From positions 207,353 to 271,352 of the forward strand of contig JACFMQ010000002.1 in assembly GCA_019455325.1 (NCBI GenBank): DNA of 64,000 nt, written 5' to 3'. The notes beneath the pieces are model-generated. The model was not told the origin of the DNA. It searched no databases and saw only the letters and a program-made list of their open reading frames with translations. Positions 8,252 through 64,000 of this stretch are shown here, piece after piece (positions within the stretch are counted from its first letter, which is position 1; every line of letters starts with the position of its first letter). Made by a program: the position numbers and the translations under genes. The stretch is from Rhodocyclaceae bacterium. GTDB taxonomy: Bacteria > Pseudomonadota > Gammaproteobacteria > Burkholderiales > Rhodocyclaceae.

Positions 8252-8633
8252 CACTCCCTCCGCGTCTTATTTATCGCATCATGCCATGCAGCATGACCGT
8301 GACCCGATTGTAACAACGGCACTGCGGCGAGGGAATCCGCATGACCTCCGCAAGCGCGGCCGGGCGGCCGCGCAAAAATGACGTCGACAAATATCATCGA
8401 CGCAAGTCGCTGATTACTATCGGCATAAAATCGTCGCCTGTCCGGCCGGGAGTTCACTGCGGCGCACCGCGCATTTCGTGAAGTCGCAAGCGACGGAACG
8501 CCGATCCGTGACGCCGCGGCCGCCGCCCCGATGCCCGATGCGGGCCGAGCCGGTTTTCACAAGATGAACGGCGTTTCGCGATTCGGAATTTGCAGCGCAA
8601 CACCATGATCCATAAAGATTTTAAAAAATCTTA

Positions 8634-8679
8634 TGTCTTATATAAGACACTTGTTCGACCTGCCATTCCTCTCTATACT
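8634..8679 (+). promoter_or_regulatory. aceA promoter with 16-bp perfect palindrome
   Basis: A perfect palindrome TGTCTTATATAAGACA (8634-8649) lies directly upstream of a good sigma-70-like promoter: TTGTTC (8651-8656), 17-base spacer, TATACT (8674-8679). The palindrome centre would be at about -44, suiting an activator. An AT-rich inverted repeat (AAGATTTT / AAAATCTT-like, 8615-8632) is immediately upstream. Nearly the same palindrome occurs before the TSUP-aceB unit at 33312. The rest of the 8252-8766 spacer shows no supported gene. Confidence 0.65.
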
Positions 8680-8766
8680 CACTCCATCGGCCGAAACGGT
8701 CGCGCGCCGCTGGCGCGGCCGCCGGAAACCGGATTTTTCAACCCGAAAACCCATTGAGGACAGAGC

Positions 8767-10077
8767 ATGACCACTCGCGAACAACGCATCGCCGCCCTGG
8801 AAAAGGACTGGGCCACCAACCCCCGCTGGCAGGGCATCAAGCGCAACTACTCGGCCGCCGACGTCGTCCGCCTGCAGGGCCTCCAGCAGATCGAATACAC
8901 GCTGGCCCAGCGCGGCGCCAAGAAGCTGTGGGAAAAGGTCAACGGCGCGGCCAAGAAGGGCTACGTGAACGCCTTCGGCGCGATCACCGCCGGCCAGGCC
9001 ATGCAGCAGGCGAAGGCCGGTCTGGAAGCCGTCTATCTGTCGGGCTGGCAGGTTGCCGCCGACGGTAACACTTCGGAAACAATGTATCCGGACCAGTCGC
9101 TGTACGCCTACGACTCGGTGCCGACGATGGTCCGCCGCATCAACAACACCTTCAAGCGCGCCGACGAGATCCAGTGGTCGCGCGGCATCAACGAAGGCGA
9201 CGCCAACTTCGTCGACTACTTCCTGCCGATCGTCGCCGACGCGGAAGCCGGCTTCGGCGGCGTGCTCAACGCCTTCGAGCTGATGAAGAACATGATCGCC
9301 GCCGGCGCCGCCGGCGTGCACTTCGAGGACCAACTGGCCGCCGTGAAGAAGTGCGGCCACATGGGCGGCAAGGTGCTGGTGCCGACCCAGGAAGCGATCG
9401 AGAAGCTGATCGCCGCCCGCTTCGCCGCCGACGTCATGGGCGTGTCGACGCTGATCCTGGCGCGCACCGACGCGGAAGCCGCCAACCTGCTGACCTCGGA
9501 CCACGACGCCAACGACAAGCCGTTCTGCACCGGCGAGCGCACGCAGGAAGGCTTCTACCGCGTCAAGAACGGCCTCGAACAGGCCATCAGCCGCGGCGTC
9601 GCCTACGCCCCGTACGCCGACCTCGTCTGGTGCGAGACCGGCACGCCGGACCTCGGCTTCGCCCGCGAGTTCGCGCAGGCCGTGCTCGCCGCCAACCCCG
9701 GCAAGCTCCTGGCCTACAACTGCTCGCCGTCGTTCAACTGGAAGAAGAACCTCGACGACAAGACCATCGCCAAGTTCCAGGACGAACTCTCGGCGCTCGG
9801 CTACAAGTACCAGTTCATCACGCTGGCCGGCATCCACATCAACTGGTACAACACCTTCAAGTTCGCCAACGCCTACGCCGCCGGCGAAGGCATGAAGCAT
9901 TACGTGGAGATGGTGCAGGAGCCGGAATTCGCCGCGCGCGAGCAGGGCTACACCTTCGTCTCGCACCAGCAGGAAGTCGGCGCCGGCTACTTCGACGACG
10001 TGACCACCGTGATCCAGGGCGGTTCGTCGTCGGTCAAGGCGCTGACCGGCTCGACCGAGGAAGAGCAGTTCCACTGA
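8767..10077 (+). CDS. aceA: Isocitrate lyase
   Basis: Glyoxylate-shunt enzyme cleaving isocitrate to glyoxylate and succinate, needed for growth on acetate or fatty acids. It is 436 residues, like the E. coli enzyme. The catalytic signature KKCGHMGGK is at 194-202 with the nucleophilic Cys196. The metal-binding NCSPSFNW region is also intact. GAGGA lies a few bases before the ATG. The gene stands alone between its own promoter, with a palindromic operator, and a strong terminator. Malate synthase lies 24 kb away on the same strand, unlike the aceBA operon of E. coli. Confidence 0.98.
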   Translation: MTTREQRIAALEKDWATNPRWQGIKRNYSAADVVRLQGLQQIEYTLAQRGAKKLWEKVNGAAKKGYVNAFGAITAGQAMQQAKAGLEAVYLSGWQVAADGNTSETMYPDQSLYAYDSVPTMVRRINNTFKRADEIQWSRGINEGDANFVDYFLPIVADAEAGFGGVLNAFELMKNMIAAGAAGVHFEDQLAAVKKCGHMGGKVLVPTQEAIEKLIAARFAADVMGVSTLILARTDAEAANLLTSDHDANDKPFCTGERTQEGFYRVKNGLEQAISRGVAYAPYADLVWCETGTPDLGFAREFAQAVLAANPGKLLAYNCSPSFNWKKNLDDKTIAKFQDELSALGYKYQFITLAGIHINWYNTFKFANAYAAGEGMKHYVEMVQEPEFAAREQGYTFVSHQQEVGAGYFDDVTTVIQGGSSSVKALTGSTEEEQFH

Positions 10078-11112: not shown

Positions 11113-13837
11113 TCTCTTTCGCCTCCTGATTCGCGTATCCGCCCCAGGGCAGGGTCAGGCGGATGGTGGTTCCACGCCCTTCCGGGCCGGGCAGCGCCTC
11201 GACGCTGCCCATGTGCGCACCTACGATGCCTTGGACGATCGTCAGCCCCAGGCCGGTTCCCTGCCTGCCCCGGTCGCCGCGCTCCACGCTGTAGAACATA
11301 TCGAAGATGCGCCGCCGCTCCGCTTCGGGAATGCCCGGCCCGCGGTCCGAAACGTCGATCAGCAGTCGATCGTCCTCGGTGCGCCGGACCCGCACCCGGA
11401 CGGTCTCGCCAGGGGGAGAAAATTTTGCGGCGTTCTCCATGACATTGAACAGGGCCTGCTCGACGAGCGCGGGATGGACGTGGATCGGGGGCAGGTCCGG
11501 CGGAATCTCGTGCTCGATGCGGGCGCCGGGTTCGTACCGCTGCAAGCGCCGGGATGCGGAGCCCACCAATTCGTCGACGCCGATCCAGTCGCGCGTCAGC
11601 ATCAATCCCTGCTGCCCGAGCCGGGTCATGTCGAGGAGGTTCTGAATGTAGCGGTCCAGGCGCTCACCCTCCACGTGGATGGTCTCCAGCAGGCTGTGCC
11701 GATCCTCCGGGCCCATGTCCTTGCCGTAGCGCGCCAGGCTGTCCGCGGCGCCGATCATCGACGACAGCGGCGAGCGAAGGTCGTGCGACACGGAAGACAA
11801 CAGCGCGGACCGCAGCCGCTCCGTCTCTCCCGTGACGCGCGCCACCTCCAGCTCCGATACCAGGCGCGTGCGCAGGGCTGCCTGGCCGATGTCCTCCGCC
11901 ATGCTTTCGGCGAGGCGGCGCTCCTCGAACGAAAGCCGCCCCACGCCCGACGGGAACCTCAAACCGACCACGCCCAGCGTGTCCTTGTCCGAACGGACCG
12001 GCAGAAACCACCAGGCAGAGTTGCTCAGGGTGTCGGTGTAGCGTCCGCTGCTCTGGCCGTGCTGCCGCGTCCAATCGGCGGCCACCAGATCTTTCTCCGT
12101 GAGGTGCTCCGCAGACGCTGACGGTCCGGTTTCGCCATTGATGCGCATCCACGCCCTGGCATTCAGCGTCGACTCCAGAACCGAAGCGCCAGCCGTGATG
12201 ACCTGCCCGAGGTCGGCAGCCTTGGCGAGTTTTCGCCCCAGATTCTGCATGGCCATGGCATGGATATTCGCGGCTCGCAGGGCCACGACCTGCATCCGCA
12301 GCCGCGAGGCCAGCCGTCCGGCGATCAGGGCCGCGGCGAGGAACAAGAGCACGGTGGCCACTCCGCGTTGGGCGCCGATCAGGAAAGTGAAGCGCGGCTC
12401 GATGAAGAAAAAGTCATAGGACAGGAAGCACAACGCTGCGGTGACGACGGCCGAAGTCATCCGCGTCCGGGAGGCGACCAATATCACCGCCACGAGGAAA
12501 ACCAGCGACAGATCCTGCAGGCCCAGGAACCGCTCCGCCAAGGCCGCCGTACCGGTCGCGCCTGCGCTGATCGCCAGAATCAGCAAGAGATCCCGCCGGG
12601 CGAGGCTTTCGCCCGCAATGTCGGGCAGGCGCAACGAACGCTGCCGAACCTGCGGCGCGCCGACGATGGTCAGTTCGTAGCGCGCCCCCCGCTGCAATAG
12701 CTGCTGCGTCAGCGTACGGTTGAAGATGCGGGCGATCGGGCGTTCGCGCGTGCGGCCGATCACGATTGACCTTGCGCCGCGCGCCGCGGCGGCGTCGAGC
12801 AGAGCCTGGGTAACATCGGAGTTGTGCAGTACCGCCGTCTCACCGCCCAGATTGCGCGCCAGCGCGAAAGCCTTGTCGATTTCCAGCAAACGCCGCTGTT
12901 CATCGCGCGCCGCGCCGTCGGGTGCCGATGTGGCACGACGCACATCGTCCGCATGCAGGGCGGCGCTGGCCGAGCGGCCCGTATCCACCGTGACCGCCGA
13001 CCACGGCGCACCGCGGCGCTCGGCGATCTTGGCGCCCGCCCTGACGAGGTATTCCGAGTGCCCCCGGCCGTCGATCGCGATCAGCACGTGGCGCTGGATG
13101 GCAATGCCTTCGAGCCCGCGGGCCGCGCGCTTCTCGCGCAAGTCGACATCGACATACTCGGCGACGGTCTGCATCGCCAGTTCGCGCAGGGCGGTGAGAT
13201 TCGAGGGCGAAAAAAACGCCTGCAGCGCCTGGGCCGCCTGTTCGGGCAGGTATACCTTGCCTTGATTCAGGCGTTCGATCAGTTCGCGCGCAGGCAGGTC
13301 GACCAGGCGGATGTCGCGCAGTCGCTCGAATACGGCGTCGGGCACCGTTTCACCGACCCGGACGCCGGTGATCTGATGCACCACGTCGTTCACGCTTTCC
13401 AGATGCTGGATATTGACCGTGGTATAGACATCGATTCCGGCATCGAGCAACTCCTCCACGTCCTGCCAGCGCCGCTCGTGGCGGCTTCCGGGGGCGTTGC
13501 GGTGGGCAAGCTCATCGACCAGCGCAATCGCCGGTTTGCGGACCAGCAAGCCGTCGAGGTCCATCTCCTCCAACTGACGCCCCTGGTACGCCACTTTCTT
13601 GCGGGGCAGCAGCGGCAGCCCCTCGACCAGGGCCTGGGTCTCGCTGCGGCCGTGGGTTTCGACGATGCCGACGACGACATCCACCCTCTGGCGGTGAAGT
13701 TCGCGCGCGCGCGCCAGCATGGCGTAGGTCTTGCCGACGCCCGGCGCGGCGCCCAGAAACACCGTCAGACGCCCGACCGCCTGACGCTTCAGTTCGCCCA
13801 GCAGGGCATCGGCTTGCTCAGTCTGTTCGGTTCCCAT
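11096..13837 (-). CDS. kdpD: Sensor histidine kinase KdpD
   Basis: Membrane sensor kinase for potassium limitation, partner of KdpE. At 913 residues it is full length. The N-terminal KdpD domain has a Walker A motif GAAPGVGKT at 29-37, followed by a universal-stress-protein-like domain (about 248-395). Four closely spaced membrane helices (about 415-510) come next, then a GAF-like region (535-660), and a HisKA domain with phospho-accepting His685 in SSVSHDLRSP. The HATPase domain has the N box, DRGPGIP and GTGLGL. It is encoded directly after kdpC. Confidence 0.97.
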   Translation of the reverse strand: MGTEQTEQADALLGELKRQAVGRLTVFLGAAPGVGKTYAMLARARELHRQRVDVVVGIVETHGRSETQALVEGLPLLPRKKVAYQGRQLEEMDLDGLLVRKPAIALVDELAHRNAPGSRHERRWQDVEELLDAGIDVYTTVNIQHLESVNDVVHQITGVRVGETVPDAVFERLRDIRLVDLPARELIERLNQGKVYLPEQAAQALQAFFSPSNLTALRELAMQTVAEYVDVDLREKRAARGLEGIAIQRHVLIAIDGRGHSEYLVRAGAKIAERRGAPWSAVTVDTGRSASAALHADDVRRATSAPDGAARDEQRRLLEIDKAFALARNLGGETAVLHNSDVTQALLDAAAARGARSIVIGRTRERPIARIFNRTLTQQLLQRGARYELTIVGAPQVRQRSLRLPDIAGESLARRDLLLILAISAGATGTAALAERFLGLQDLSLVFLVAVILVASRTRMTSAVVTAALCFLSYDFFFIEPRFTFLIGAQRGVATVLLFLAAALIAGRLASRLRMQVVALRAANIHAMAMQNLGRKLAKAADLGQVITAGASVLESTLNARAWMRINGETGPSASAEHLTEKDLVAADWTRQHGQSSGRYTDTLSNSAWWFLPVRSDKDTLGVVGLRFPSGVGRLSFEERRLAESMAEDIGQAALRTRLVSELEVARVTGETERLRSALLSSVSHDLRSPLSSMIGAADSLARYGKDMGPEDRHSLLETIHVEGERLDRYIQNLLDMTRLGQQGLMLTRDWIGVDELVGSASRRLQRYEPGARIEHEIPPDLPPIHVHPALVEQALFNVMENAAKFSPPGETVRVRVRRTEDDRLLIDVSDRGPGIPEAERRRIFDMFYSVERGDRGRQGTGLGLTIVQGIVGAHMGSVEALPGPEGRGTTIRLTLPWGGYANQEAKENGMPE

Positions 13838-61186: not shown

Positions 61187-61583
61187 TTTGGCAAATGGAT
61201 TCAGGGACTGCGCTTCATGGTTCTACGATAAGCGAAAGACATACGGGCTGACCGGCCCACGAGTTGCTTTCCCGAAGTTGCCCGACGACAGCACGGCAAC
61301 GAAGGGGCAGCCCGGATGGATGCTGTCAAACGGCGGCAACGCAAGCATCGTGGTGTCATGGCACTGCGCCATCGGTTTGCCCGGGGTGGTAAGGCGCCCA
61401 CTTCGGGATGTCCTGGATTCCGATGGGCAATAAACTTCGGCCACGCTCACCTGATAAGCTTTGAAGATCATAAGGTAGCGGCAACGCCCTTCCCCATCCC
61501 ACACCTACCGATCCGATGGTAGGCTGCCAGCAACCGCGAGATTACAATGGAATGGATTTCCCGGAGCCGATCCAGGATTGCCC
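61187..61583. other. Spacer before the defence-like operon
   Basis: About 400 bases without a supported gene, less strongly codon-biased than its surroundings. Near its end are an inverted repeat CCTACC-N8-GGTAGG (61504-61523) and a -10-like TACAAT (61543-61548), 36 bases before the first gene of the operon. It is a candidate boundary of an inserted module, though no direct repeats or integrase were seen. Confidence 0.45.
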
Positions 61584-62438
61584 ATGCAGCTTGATATTTT
61601 CCGACATAGCCGCGACGTGGCGTTGCGCAATGCGTTGATCGATGCGATGAAACGCCGCGCCACCGCGGCCGTCGATTCCGCCGCGGCGGCGCTTGCCGCC
61701 GAATATCCGGCGGATGCGCTGCTGCCCGACGCGGCAGAGCTTTGCCGCTGGCTGCGAACCAGTCTGCCGCAAGCCGATGCCGCAGCGGCCCTGGCGGACA
61801 TGGAAGGCCGCATCGAGCCGGCGGCGCGGCGGGTGCTCGGCAACGGGGCCCGGGCCTGGCTGGCGCCCTGCTGGCAGGAGTTGGCGCGGACGATGGCCGG
61901 CCAGGCGTTCGATCCGGATGCAGAAGCGCTGCATGCGGCGCCCCTCTTTCTGCGCGCTGGGGATTGGCGTGCCGCGGTCACGGCCGTCGAGTCCATCCCG
62001 GCGTGGCGGCGCCGGCCGGCGCCGCTGGGCTGGATGATCGAGGCCCGGCGCCATCTCGACGGCGCCGCCGCCGTCTGGCCCATGCTCGCCGAACTCGCCT
62101 GGATGGCGCCGCAACGCGCCCGCCGGCTACTGCCACGCTTGGCGGATGATCGGCTGGCAAGCCTCCTGCGCCGCTTCGACAGCGAATTCGCGGGCAGCGA
62201 CGGGCCAGACGGCTTTTCCCTGTTCCCGGCCTGGCTGCTGGTCGAAGACGGCAGCTTCGCCGCGCCCCTCAAGTCCGCCGAACAAGGCCGCGGTACCGGA
62301 CCGGAGCGCTGCGCGCGCCTTGTCGTCACGCTGCTCGGCCTGGAACGCCAAGGGCGCCATGACGAGCTGATCGAGAGTCGGCGCCGCTTGCGCGATCTCG
62401 ACGGCGCGTTGTTCGAGTGGTACATGCGGAGCCGCTGA
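61584..62438 (+). CDS. Unknown protein leading a Wadjet type II-like operon
   Basis: Protein of 284 residues that I do not recognise. It starts MQLDIFRHSRDVALRNALIDAM at an ATG with AGGA upstream. It is rich in Ala, Arg and Leu and looks all-helical; no transmembrane segment, signal peptide or catalytic motif is apparent. Repeated short helical stretches with Trp (for example ELCRWLRTSLP, RAWLAPCWQELA, RAGDWRAAVTAVESIPAWRRRPAP, YMRSR) suggest a helical-repeat scaffold. It lies 3 bases before a DUF2397 gene, so it is almost certainly co-translated with it. Confidence 0.75.
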   Translation: MQLDIFRHSRDVALRNALIDAMKRRATAAVDSAAAALAAEYPADALLPDAAELCRWLRTSLPQADAAAALADMEGRIEPAARRVLGNGARAWLAPCWQELARTMAGQAFDPDAEALHAAPLFLRAGDWRAAVTAVESIPAWRRRPAPLGWMIEARRHLDGAAAVWPMLAELAWMAPQRARRLLPRLADDRLASLLRRFDSEFAGSDGPDGFSLFPAWLLVEDGSFAAPLKSAEQGRGTGPERCARLVVTLLGLERQGRHDELIESRRRLRDLDGALFEWYMRSR

Positions 62439-62441
62439 GCC

Positions 62442-63941
62442 ATGGAGCCGAGCCAGAGCGAACTCTTCCGTCACGTCAATGCCGACAAGGCCGCGTTCTA
62501 CCGCGCCGTCATGGAGGTCTTCGCCGCCGCCAAGCGCCAGTTCCGTCCCTATCTGCGGCCCGATGAGGTATTGCGCGAGGCCGTCTGGCCGGGCGTGCCG
62601 CCGACGCTGGAGGAGGTCCGGGCGGCGCTGGCGCAACTGGTCGACTGGGGCAATCTGGAATCCCAGCCGGATACGGCGCGGGTGGCCAGCATCGACGATT
62701 TCTACCTGGCCCGCTTCCTCTACCGGCTGTCCCATGGCGGCGAGGCCGTGGAGTCGGCGCTGGCGACCTTCGCCCAGGCGCTGCGGCGCCGGGGGGAATT
62801 GCAGAGCGTGGCCCTGGAGGACATCCACGGCCGGCTCGACGCCTTGATCGCCCTGGGCGCCGAGCCGGCGCCGGACGCCGCCAAGGTGCACGAGGTGCTG
62901 CGCGACCTGGTGCGGGTGTTCGAAGACCTGGCCGAGAACGCCCAGGCCTTCATGGCCGGCATCGTCCGCAGCGTCGAGATGCAGCAGGCCGACCCCGCCG
63001 CCGTGGTCGCGTTCAAGAAACGGCTGATCGATTATCTGGAACGCTTCATCGGCGATCTGGTGAGCCGTTCCGGCGCCATCGCCGGGCGCCTCGGGGCGCT
63101 CGACCTTCGCATCGACGCGCTGCTCTGGCAGGCGGCCAACCGCGAGGCGCGCGACATCGCGCCGGGCGACGTGGGCGAGCAGGCCGATGCGCTGCAAGCG
63201 CGCGTCCGGGCCTGGCGCGAACGCTGGCGCGGCCTGCGCCTGTGGTTCGTGGCCGACGGCCACGGCCCGGCCCAGGCCGAGGCCCTGCGCGCCAAGGCGC
63301 GGGCGGCGATCCCCCAGTTGCTGGCTGCCGTCGCCGCCGTCAACGAACGCCGCAGCGGCCGCAGCGACCGCTCGGCGGATTTCCGCGCGCTCGCCTGCTG
63401 GTTCGCGGAATGCGCCGACGACGGCCAGGCCCACCGCCTGGCACGAGCCGCCTTCGCCCTCAACCCGGCGCGCCACCTAGTGCTGCCGATCGATAGCGAT
63501 GTGCCGGCGACCACCGCCTGGGCCGAGGCGCCGGCGGTGCCGATCCATCCGCGCCTGCGGGAATACGGCTCGGCGATGGTGCGCGGGGCCGCGCCGCGGG
63601 TGCGGAACCGCGACGCCGAACGGGCGCTGCTGGCGCAGCAGGCCGCGGCCGAGCACCGCCAGGTGGAAGCGGCCCGCGCCCGGCTGGCCACCGGCGCAAT
63701 GACTCGCCTGTCGCAACTCGGCCCGCTCGATGCCCACGAATTCGATCTTTTCCTCGCCGTGCTCGGCGAGGCCCTGGCCGGCCAGTCGGCGCCGGACCAG
63801 GCCGTGGCGCGCACCACCGCAGACGGCCTGCTGCACGTCCGCCTCGAACCGCTGGCCGCAGATTCCCATGCCGCCATCGAGACGCCGCTGGGCGTCTTTT
63901 CCGGACGGGATCACCGCATCACCATCACGCCCGCCCCATGA
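62442..63941 (+). CDS. DUF2397/TIGR02677 family protein, JetA-type subunit of type II Wadjet/Ept system
   Basis: Protein of 499 residues matching, from memory, the TIGR02677/DUF2397 family. It has an N-terminal ELFRHVNADKAAFYRAVMEVFAAAKRQFRPYLRPDEV block, the LVDWGNLESQPDTARVASIDDFYLARFLYRL block and the FMAGIVRSVE...FKKRLIDYLERFIGDLV block (about 175-210). In known four-gene systems it is encoded with DUF2398, an SMC-like ATPase and a DUF2399 TOPRIM-type nuclease, and the complex cleaves foreign circular DNA or limits plasmids. Kleisin-like role for this subunit is from published work on related systems. Its stop overlaps the next gene by ATGA. Confidence 0.85.
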   Translation: MEPSQSELFRHVNADKAAFYRAVMEVFAAAKRQFRPYLRPDEVLREAVWPGVPPTLEEVRAALAQLVDWGNLESQPDTARVASIDDFYLARFLYRLSHGGEAVESALATFAQALRRRGELQSVALEDIHGRLDALIALGAEPAPDAAKVHEVLRDLVRVFEDLAENAQAFMAGIVRSVEMQQADPAAVVAFKKRLIDYLERFIGDLVSRSGAIAGRLGALDLRIDALLWQAANREARDIAPGDVGEQADALQARVRAWRERWRGLRLWFVADGHGPAQAEALRAKARAAIPQLLAAVAAVNERRSGRSDRSADFRALACWFAECADDGQAHRLARAAFALNPARHLVLPIDSDVPATTAWAEAPAVPIHPRLREYGSAMVRGAAPRVRNRDAERALLAQQAAAEHRQVEAARARLATGAMTRLSQLGPLDAHEFDLFLAVLGEALAGQSAPDQAVARTTADGLLHVRLEPLAADSHAAIETPLGVFSGRDHRITITPAP

Positions 63942-64000
63942 CGGTTCAACCCCGCTTCGACAGCCGCGCCATTGGCGACCGCCAGAGCCAGCATCGCCAG
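63938..64000 (+). CDS. 5' end of next operon gene, probably DUF2398/TIGR02678 type
   Basis: The ATG at 63938 overlaps the DUF2397 stop, and 21 codons are visible before the window ends (MTVQPRFDSRAIGDRQSQHRQ). Position after a DUF2397 gene makes the DUF2398 partner the expected product, but the visible part is too short to show any motif. The assignment is from gene order only. Confidence 0.45.
   Translation, partial: MTVQPRFDSRAIGDRQSQHRQ

Follow-up and report, generated by a model that had tools for sequence, protein, structure and literature searches.

At the right-hand end of the window (the whole stretch of 64,000 nucleotides that was analysed), three tightly packed genes are found on the plus strand. 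The first, here called P1, leads the operon and encodes a protein of 284 residues, from the ATG at 61584 to the TGA at 62438; an alternative in-frame TTG start is possible at 61578. After a gap of 3 bases (GCC) it is followed by a gene located at 62442-63941, identified by its profile matches as the type II Wadjet gene jetA (DUF2397/TIGR02677): its product matches PF09660, the DUF2397 model, in the Pfam search (E 1.7e-143), TIGR02677 in NCBIfam (E 3.7e-167, 557 bits, cut-off 165.85) and the PADLOC model JetA2 (E 5e-195). The third gene, jetB (DUF2398/TIGR02678), overlaps the end of jetA by ATGA and is clipped by the end of the window (63938-64000).

The window occupies 207353-271352 of contig C24 of G000, and the rest of the operon was read beyond position 64000 in this contig (stretch L005), where jetB continues as L005:5291-6541, for a protein of 416 residues, and is followed by jetC (L005:6538-10662, 1374 residues) and jetD (L005:10659-11870, 403 residues), with 4-base overlaps between successive genes from jetA to jetD. 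In NCBIfam, JetB matches TIGR02678 (E 6.7e-124, 413.8 bits, cut-off 124.65), JetC the SMC model TIGR02680 (E 0, 1468.1 bits, cut-off 462.85) and JetD, a DUF2399 protein, TIGR02679 (E 2.1e-122, 408.9 bits, cut-off 196); the three proteins also match the PADLOC type II models JetB2, JetC2 and JetD2. A motif scan located GNNGTGKS at residue 43, SSGER at 1254 and VLLDEA at 1288 of JetC, which we take to be the Walker A, signature and Walker B motifs of an SMC-like ATPase, and CENP at 272 and DFDWPG (DxDxPG) at 322 of JetD, presumably the Toprim-like acidic residues of a nuclease. Judged by these matches, the end of the window together with the contig beyond it is a type II Wadjet operon, JetABCD, complete and of the ordinary kind. 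The four genes, their order and their 4-base overlaps are those of the known system (DUF2397-DUF2398-SMC-DUF2399, kin of EptABCD/MksBEFG); the difference is one additional leading gene, P1, of which no other examined JetA locus has an intact copy. A preliminary description, made from the window alone, had placed a 284-residue gene 3 bases before a strongly matching DUF2397/TIGR02677 gene, had noted the ATGA overlap of the latter with a gene cut by the edge, and had proposed a type II Wadjet locus; all of this was borne out, the gene at the edge being jetB and the DUF2398, SMC and DUF2399 genes lying in order past 64000.

A Shine-Dalgarno-like GGAG for jetA lies inside the last codons of P1, and the sequence ahead of P1 showed no promoter-like site. 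The GC content is 0.713 for P1, 0.727-0.749 for the Jet genes and 0.624 for the upstream LysR gene; at third codon positions the value for P1 (0.814) is below that of the Jet genes (0.869-0.890), and composition leaves a joint arrival of P1 and the Jet genes undecided. In the six other genomes of the genus, close counterparts are lacking both for the upstream LysR gene (best match 1.9e-21, 29% identity) and for the gene that follows the operon. A gene for 597 residues located downstream of jetD, on the minus strand (L005:12800-14593), has a second copy, 78% identical, at G000:C9:283068-284795.

The P1 protein, of which no second copy was found in the genome, has no match at E <= 1 among the Pfam and NCBIfam models, in agreement with the preliminary description, which had assigned it to no recognised family; similarly, a P1 profile detected no PDB sequence at E <= 1. 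The sole PADLOC match, to REase_II (E 0.0043 over 42 residues), was rejected as too weak. The protein had also been described as helical, and the structural model, folded from the single sequence, is indeed nearly all helix; the model is of low confidence (pLDDT 61.4, pTM 0.46), and a Foldseek comparison with the PDB returned nothing at E <= 0.001. Weaker Foldseek matches, mostly to designed or TPR-like helical proteins, were not relied on.

Relatives of P1 were searched in samples of genomes, a threshold of E <= 0.001 being applied to the genome-level counts. Matches were found in 19 of 398 genomes of the phylum sample and in 10 of 150 of the order sample, the own genome being included in both; in the order sample, one other genome contributes a fragment only and one a copy with two internal stops. 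Within the family sample matches were detected in 26 of 249 genomes, of which 18, including the own one, carry full-length sequences and one (G656) a remnant; the other seven, which contain weak local matches, mostly over residues ~115-176, were discarded before counting. A P1 fragment at a contig end in G359, from the phylum sample, was likewise dropped. TIGR02677 scored above its cut-off in 2 of 398 phylum, 10 of 249 family and 3 of 399 order genomes, again with the own genome included each time. None of the nine other family-sample genomes with JetA above the cut-off contains a full-length P1; since only about 0.6 co-occurrences are expected by chance, this null overlap is no evidence of avoidance. 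Among 72,556 plasmid records, 23 contain P1 and 17 JetA, and the two lists share no record.

For 54 P1 loci from elsewhere (43 genome stretches and 11 of the 23 plasmid records) the surroundings were fetched, and no Jet match was detected at E 1e-5 within the sequence available for each locus, several stretches being short because of contig ends. Homologues of the leading protein therefore occur away from DUF2397 genes, an outcome which the preliminary description itself had named as speaking against its proposal of a new Wadjet component. The neighbourhoods differ across genera, and clustering of the neighbours from 46 loci, in 40 of which gene calling recovered P1, revealed no widely shared partner. 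The small groups which did emerge correspond, according to a Pfam search with one member each, to a SWIM-SNF2 helicase, an XPB-type helicase and a DUF1186/SEC-C protein.

Some individual arrangements may be recorded. Relatives of a long form adjoin a SWIM-SNF2 helicase of 1.1 thousand residues (L130, L134) or lie one gene away from it (L135); two more (L131, L133) are found beside an XPB-type helicase and its 760-residue partner, which has no Pfam match. A gap of 8 bp separates P1 from the next gene, for 750 residues, at L104:3788-6903 and L105:919-4055; the product of the latter gene in L104 matches DUF1186, SEC-C and a Xre/MbcA/ParS C-terminal domain. One genus is represented by four genomes: in L117, L118 and L120 the P1 homologue lies in the same orientation between two genes, and in the fourth (L119) the same neighbours flank a P1 missed by gene calling; we take these neighbours, probably also those of L119, to be tolA- and tolB-like genes of an apparent tol-pal operon.

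On plasmids, a ParB-like protein, a 'DNA-binding protein', an integrase or a replication initiator is annotated within 8 kb of P1 in 7 of the 11 stretches (L064, L065, L164, L165, L167, L169, L170), a count made without control for the frequency of such genes on these plasmids; the one 'DNA-binding protein' compared with Pfam is KfrA_N. Three stretches (L067, L166, L168) contain none of these genes, and the record of L163 is unannotated. L163 and L164 derive from plasmids pNK82 and pNK84 of one strain, Caballeronia sp. NK8, and their P1 homologues show the same match statistics; the homologue of pNK84 is annotated as two overlapping ORFs. No phage origin of P1 emerged from three scans of viral contigs, which reach close relatives only.

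The protein starts with MQLDIF, and the pentapeptide QLDIF, from residue 2 onward (codons 2-6, 61587-61601, plus strand), is a predicted sliding-clamp-binding motif. After exclusion of two loci without a matched N-terminus (L022, L025), 52 of the 54 homologues could be compared, and 51 of them carry Q[LM]D[LI]F, as QLDLF (27 cases), QLDIF (18) or QMDLF (6), the remaining one being QKNLF; in relatives from genomes labelled only as belonging to the same phylum, some 120 extra residues precede the motif. Q2, L3, D4 and F6 are invariant in an alignment of 17 short-form sequences, the window's own included. In the parts of a review concerned with such motifs (PMC11139829), QL(S/D)LF is given as the consensus of sliding-clamp-binding motifs, QLDLF as the strongest pentapeptide in several studies, and Q-aliphatic-x-[L/M]-[F/L] as the canonical form. 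Because position 4 is there L or M, only 33 of the 52 homologues (27 QLDLF and 6 QMDLF) fit strictly, and the copy in the window departs slightly, with I at this position. The same source describes a clamp-binding motif in the disordered N-terminus of Hda (PMC11139829); P1 resembles clamp-motif proteins such as Hda in its QLDLF-type pentapeptide, which it carries at the extreme N-terminus, and differs from them in showing no detectable kinship to a named Pfam or NCBIfam family or to PDB sequences. The motif scan detected no clamp-type motif in the four Jet proteins; the sequence QSELF at the N-terminus of JetA was considered and set aside, its Q not being conserved in relatives. On this evidence from sequence, P1 is a member of an undescribed protein family, which is probably helical and sliding-clamp-binding; we infer for it a role in clamp-associated DNA maintenance.

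The regions upstream of other jetA genes were then compared with P1. A scan of genome contigs containing JetA gave 16 loci, and with those from the genome searches and one of the 17 plasmid records (L066) 29 other loci were available. These were reduced to 27, as L099 agrees with L048, and L100 with L049, in both JetA and upstream sequence; L054 and L055, whose JetA proteins are identical, are both among the 27. L066 is a conjugative megaplasmid of Cupriavidus taiwanensis, 578 kb in size, with a type II Wadjet operon followed by a SNF2 helicase-associated protein, and the Wadjet locus L063 features, besides its jetD (8297-9511), a second, partial JetD-like match downstream (11318-12069). An intact P1 was found upstream of none of the 27, among which L139 offers only ~200 bp of upstream sequence, and 25 show no P1 trace of any kind. 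Together with the lack of Jet matches at the 54 P1 loci, this speaks against the leading gene as a new component of Wadjet in general.

Remnants of P1 were detected directly before jetA at the other two loci, L048 (Azoarcus indigens) and L061 (a Thiobacillus MAG), both open, in frame, and keeping the start and the end of P1. That of L048, 79 residues long, corresponds to about residues 1-20 and 226-284 and implies one deletion; that of L061, of 53 residues, is made up of residues 1-29, the heptapeptide GWMIEAR and residues 266-284, and is counted as two deletions because this seven-residue island persists between the ends. At least three deletions are thus needed across both remnants, and all three are in frame, an outcome with a random probability of about 1 in 27. 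In L061 the spacing to jetA is 3 bp, as in the window, GGAG is retained within the last P1 codons, MQLDIF is kept exactly, and GGAGGA precedes the start; in L048 the spacing is 31 bp, the motif is degraded to QFNLF, and no clear Shine-Dalgarno sequence lies before the start.

A JetA tree of 27 rows, with the window included and three duplicate rows removed, groups the window, L048, L049 and L061 into a clade with support 100/99. L061, of which only 321 JetA residues are in the tree, branches off first (97/84 for the grouping of the other three), and L048 is the sister of the window (98/80). P1 or an in-frame remnant precedes jetA in three of these four members, a remnant being kept at two of the three loci whose JetA is nearest to that of the window (83-85% identity); at L049 a helicase-like ORF, its function read from sequence, ends 19 bp before jetA instead. 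The tree, the remnants and the different gene at L049 suggest a single capture of P1 at the base of the clade, followed by loss in one member and shrinkage in two, separate gains being possible. The association expected by the preliminary description consequently survives as a trait of this clade, not as a general one.

Constraint on the retained ends was estimated by Nei-Gojobori codon counts (own script) over the first 29 and last 19 codons of P1, which are short segments. Between the window and L061, dN and dS are 0.24 and 1.23 at the N-terminal end and 0.11 and 0.75 at the C-terminal one; the corresponding values are 0.35 and 0.74, and 0.31 and 0.68, between the window and L048, while between L048 and L061 dN is 0.38 with saturated dS for the first segment, and dN 0.34, dS 0.51 for the last 19 codons. 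For jetA, dN and dS are 0.10 and 0.59 (window and L061) and 0.09 and 0.54 (window and L048); P1 therefore evolves faster than jetA. The ends of P1 are constrained between the window and L061, and weakly so relative to L048, and part of this constraint may predate the deletions.

The simplest reading, to which a probability of roughly 0.6 may be given, is that P1 is a captured passenger whose ends now serve as a translation leader for jetA. It draws on the completeness of the operon, the distribution of the family in the samples, the remnants, the tree and the motif; from these we infer translational coupling, dispensability of the P1 body and clamp binding. The ancestor of a small JetA clade (Rhodocyclaceae/Zoogloeaceae/Thiobacillaceae) would have acquired immediately ahead of jetA, in a single event, a gene from a helical, clamp-motif family otherwise found without Wadjet. 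The 5' end of this gene, with the start site, and its 3' end, with the last codons and their GGAG, would have become by coupling the translation leader of the operon, and the protein body, dispensable to Wadjet, would have been deleted in frame in two relatives. The Wadjet machine itself would be expected to act in the manner published for type I systems, with SMC loop extrusion leading to the cutting of small circular plasmids. Against this reading stand the absence of a promoter-like site before P1 and the spacing in L048, 31 bp rather than 3 bp. The three in-frame deletions could also be due to chance, and purifying selection on the protein is seen at the ends retained in L061, in part perhaps from before the deletions. 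In addition, P1 is open and unbroken here, and may in this genome still be a working protein.

A rival reading takes P1 as a clade-specific accessory subunit coupling Wadjet to the replisome, in which QLDIF would bind the clamp and the helical body or C-terminal tail would contact the Jet proteins, directing Wadjet to circles under replication or keeping it off the chromosome, a proposal that we regard as unlikely on balance. The motif, present in nearly all homologues (51 of 52), is at or near the consensus published, in the parts cited, in PMC11139829; it is exact in the L061 remnant, within a segment of low dN/dS, and the Jet proteins have none of their own. Both protein ends, not one, are retained in both remnants, and the link with Wadjet is as old as the four-member clade. 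A needed component is argued against because the interior is absent in two of the four clade members and the whole gene in a third, i.e. in all three closest relatives; moreover, the motif of L048 is degraded, P1 relatives exist without Wadjet in the sampled genomes, and 25 of the 27 other JetA loci lack any trace of P1.

That P1 is a neighbour with a predicted clamp-associated DNA maintenance role of its own, sharing the jetABCD transcript by chance while the deletions are neutral, is considered rather improbable. The family does occur elsewhere in equally arbitrary places, e.g. between the tolA- and tolB-like genes of L117, L118 and L120, three in-frame deletions would arise at random in about 1 case in 27, and the last 19 codons are weakly constrained between the remnants. 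Neutral decay is nevertheless disfavoured because three of three deletions are in frame; the start and stop kept in both remnants, and the position of the ribosome-binding-like sequence of jetA inside the coding end of P1, speak in the same sense.

Also unlikely is a clade-specific sliding-clamp adaptor: by docking on the replication clamp, P1 would connect the SMC machine that cuts plasmids with DNA under replication, and even the shrunken relatives would retain the tail and the peptide that docks; the tethering of Wadjet to the replisome by P1 is possible and weakly supported. Finally, remnants acting as small functional proteins, i.e. clamp-binding microproteins produced by selected deletion, are very improbable: both keep the N-terminal motif-like segment and the C-terminal tail in frame, and GGAGGA lies ahead of the L061 start, but there are two cases only, and in one of them the motif is degraded and a clear Shine-Dalgarno sequence is lacking.

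Neither a fifth gene in type II Wadjet nor the P1 family was found in the titles and abstract openings among the matches listed, whose coverage lies largely outside the subscription literature. According to PMC10586767, most Wadjet work so far concerns type I, and types II and III are still to be characterised; in the main text of this article the terms 'fifth' and 'additional gene' are absent.

The Wadjet operon is in itself ordinary, and P1 brings to light an unnamed protein family, with a clamp-docking-like motif among its best-conserved features. The family is present both on chromosomes and on Burkholderiales megaplasmids, and may have a role in replication or plasmid upkeep. The in-frame remnants suggest how a captured gene may wear down to the translation leader of a defence operon. 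Should P1 instead be an adaptor, it would be relevant to the way in which Wadjet locates or selects its DNA.
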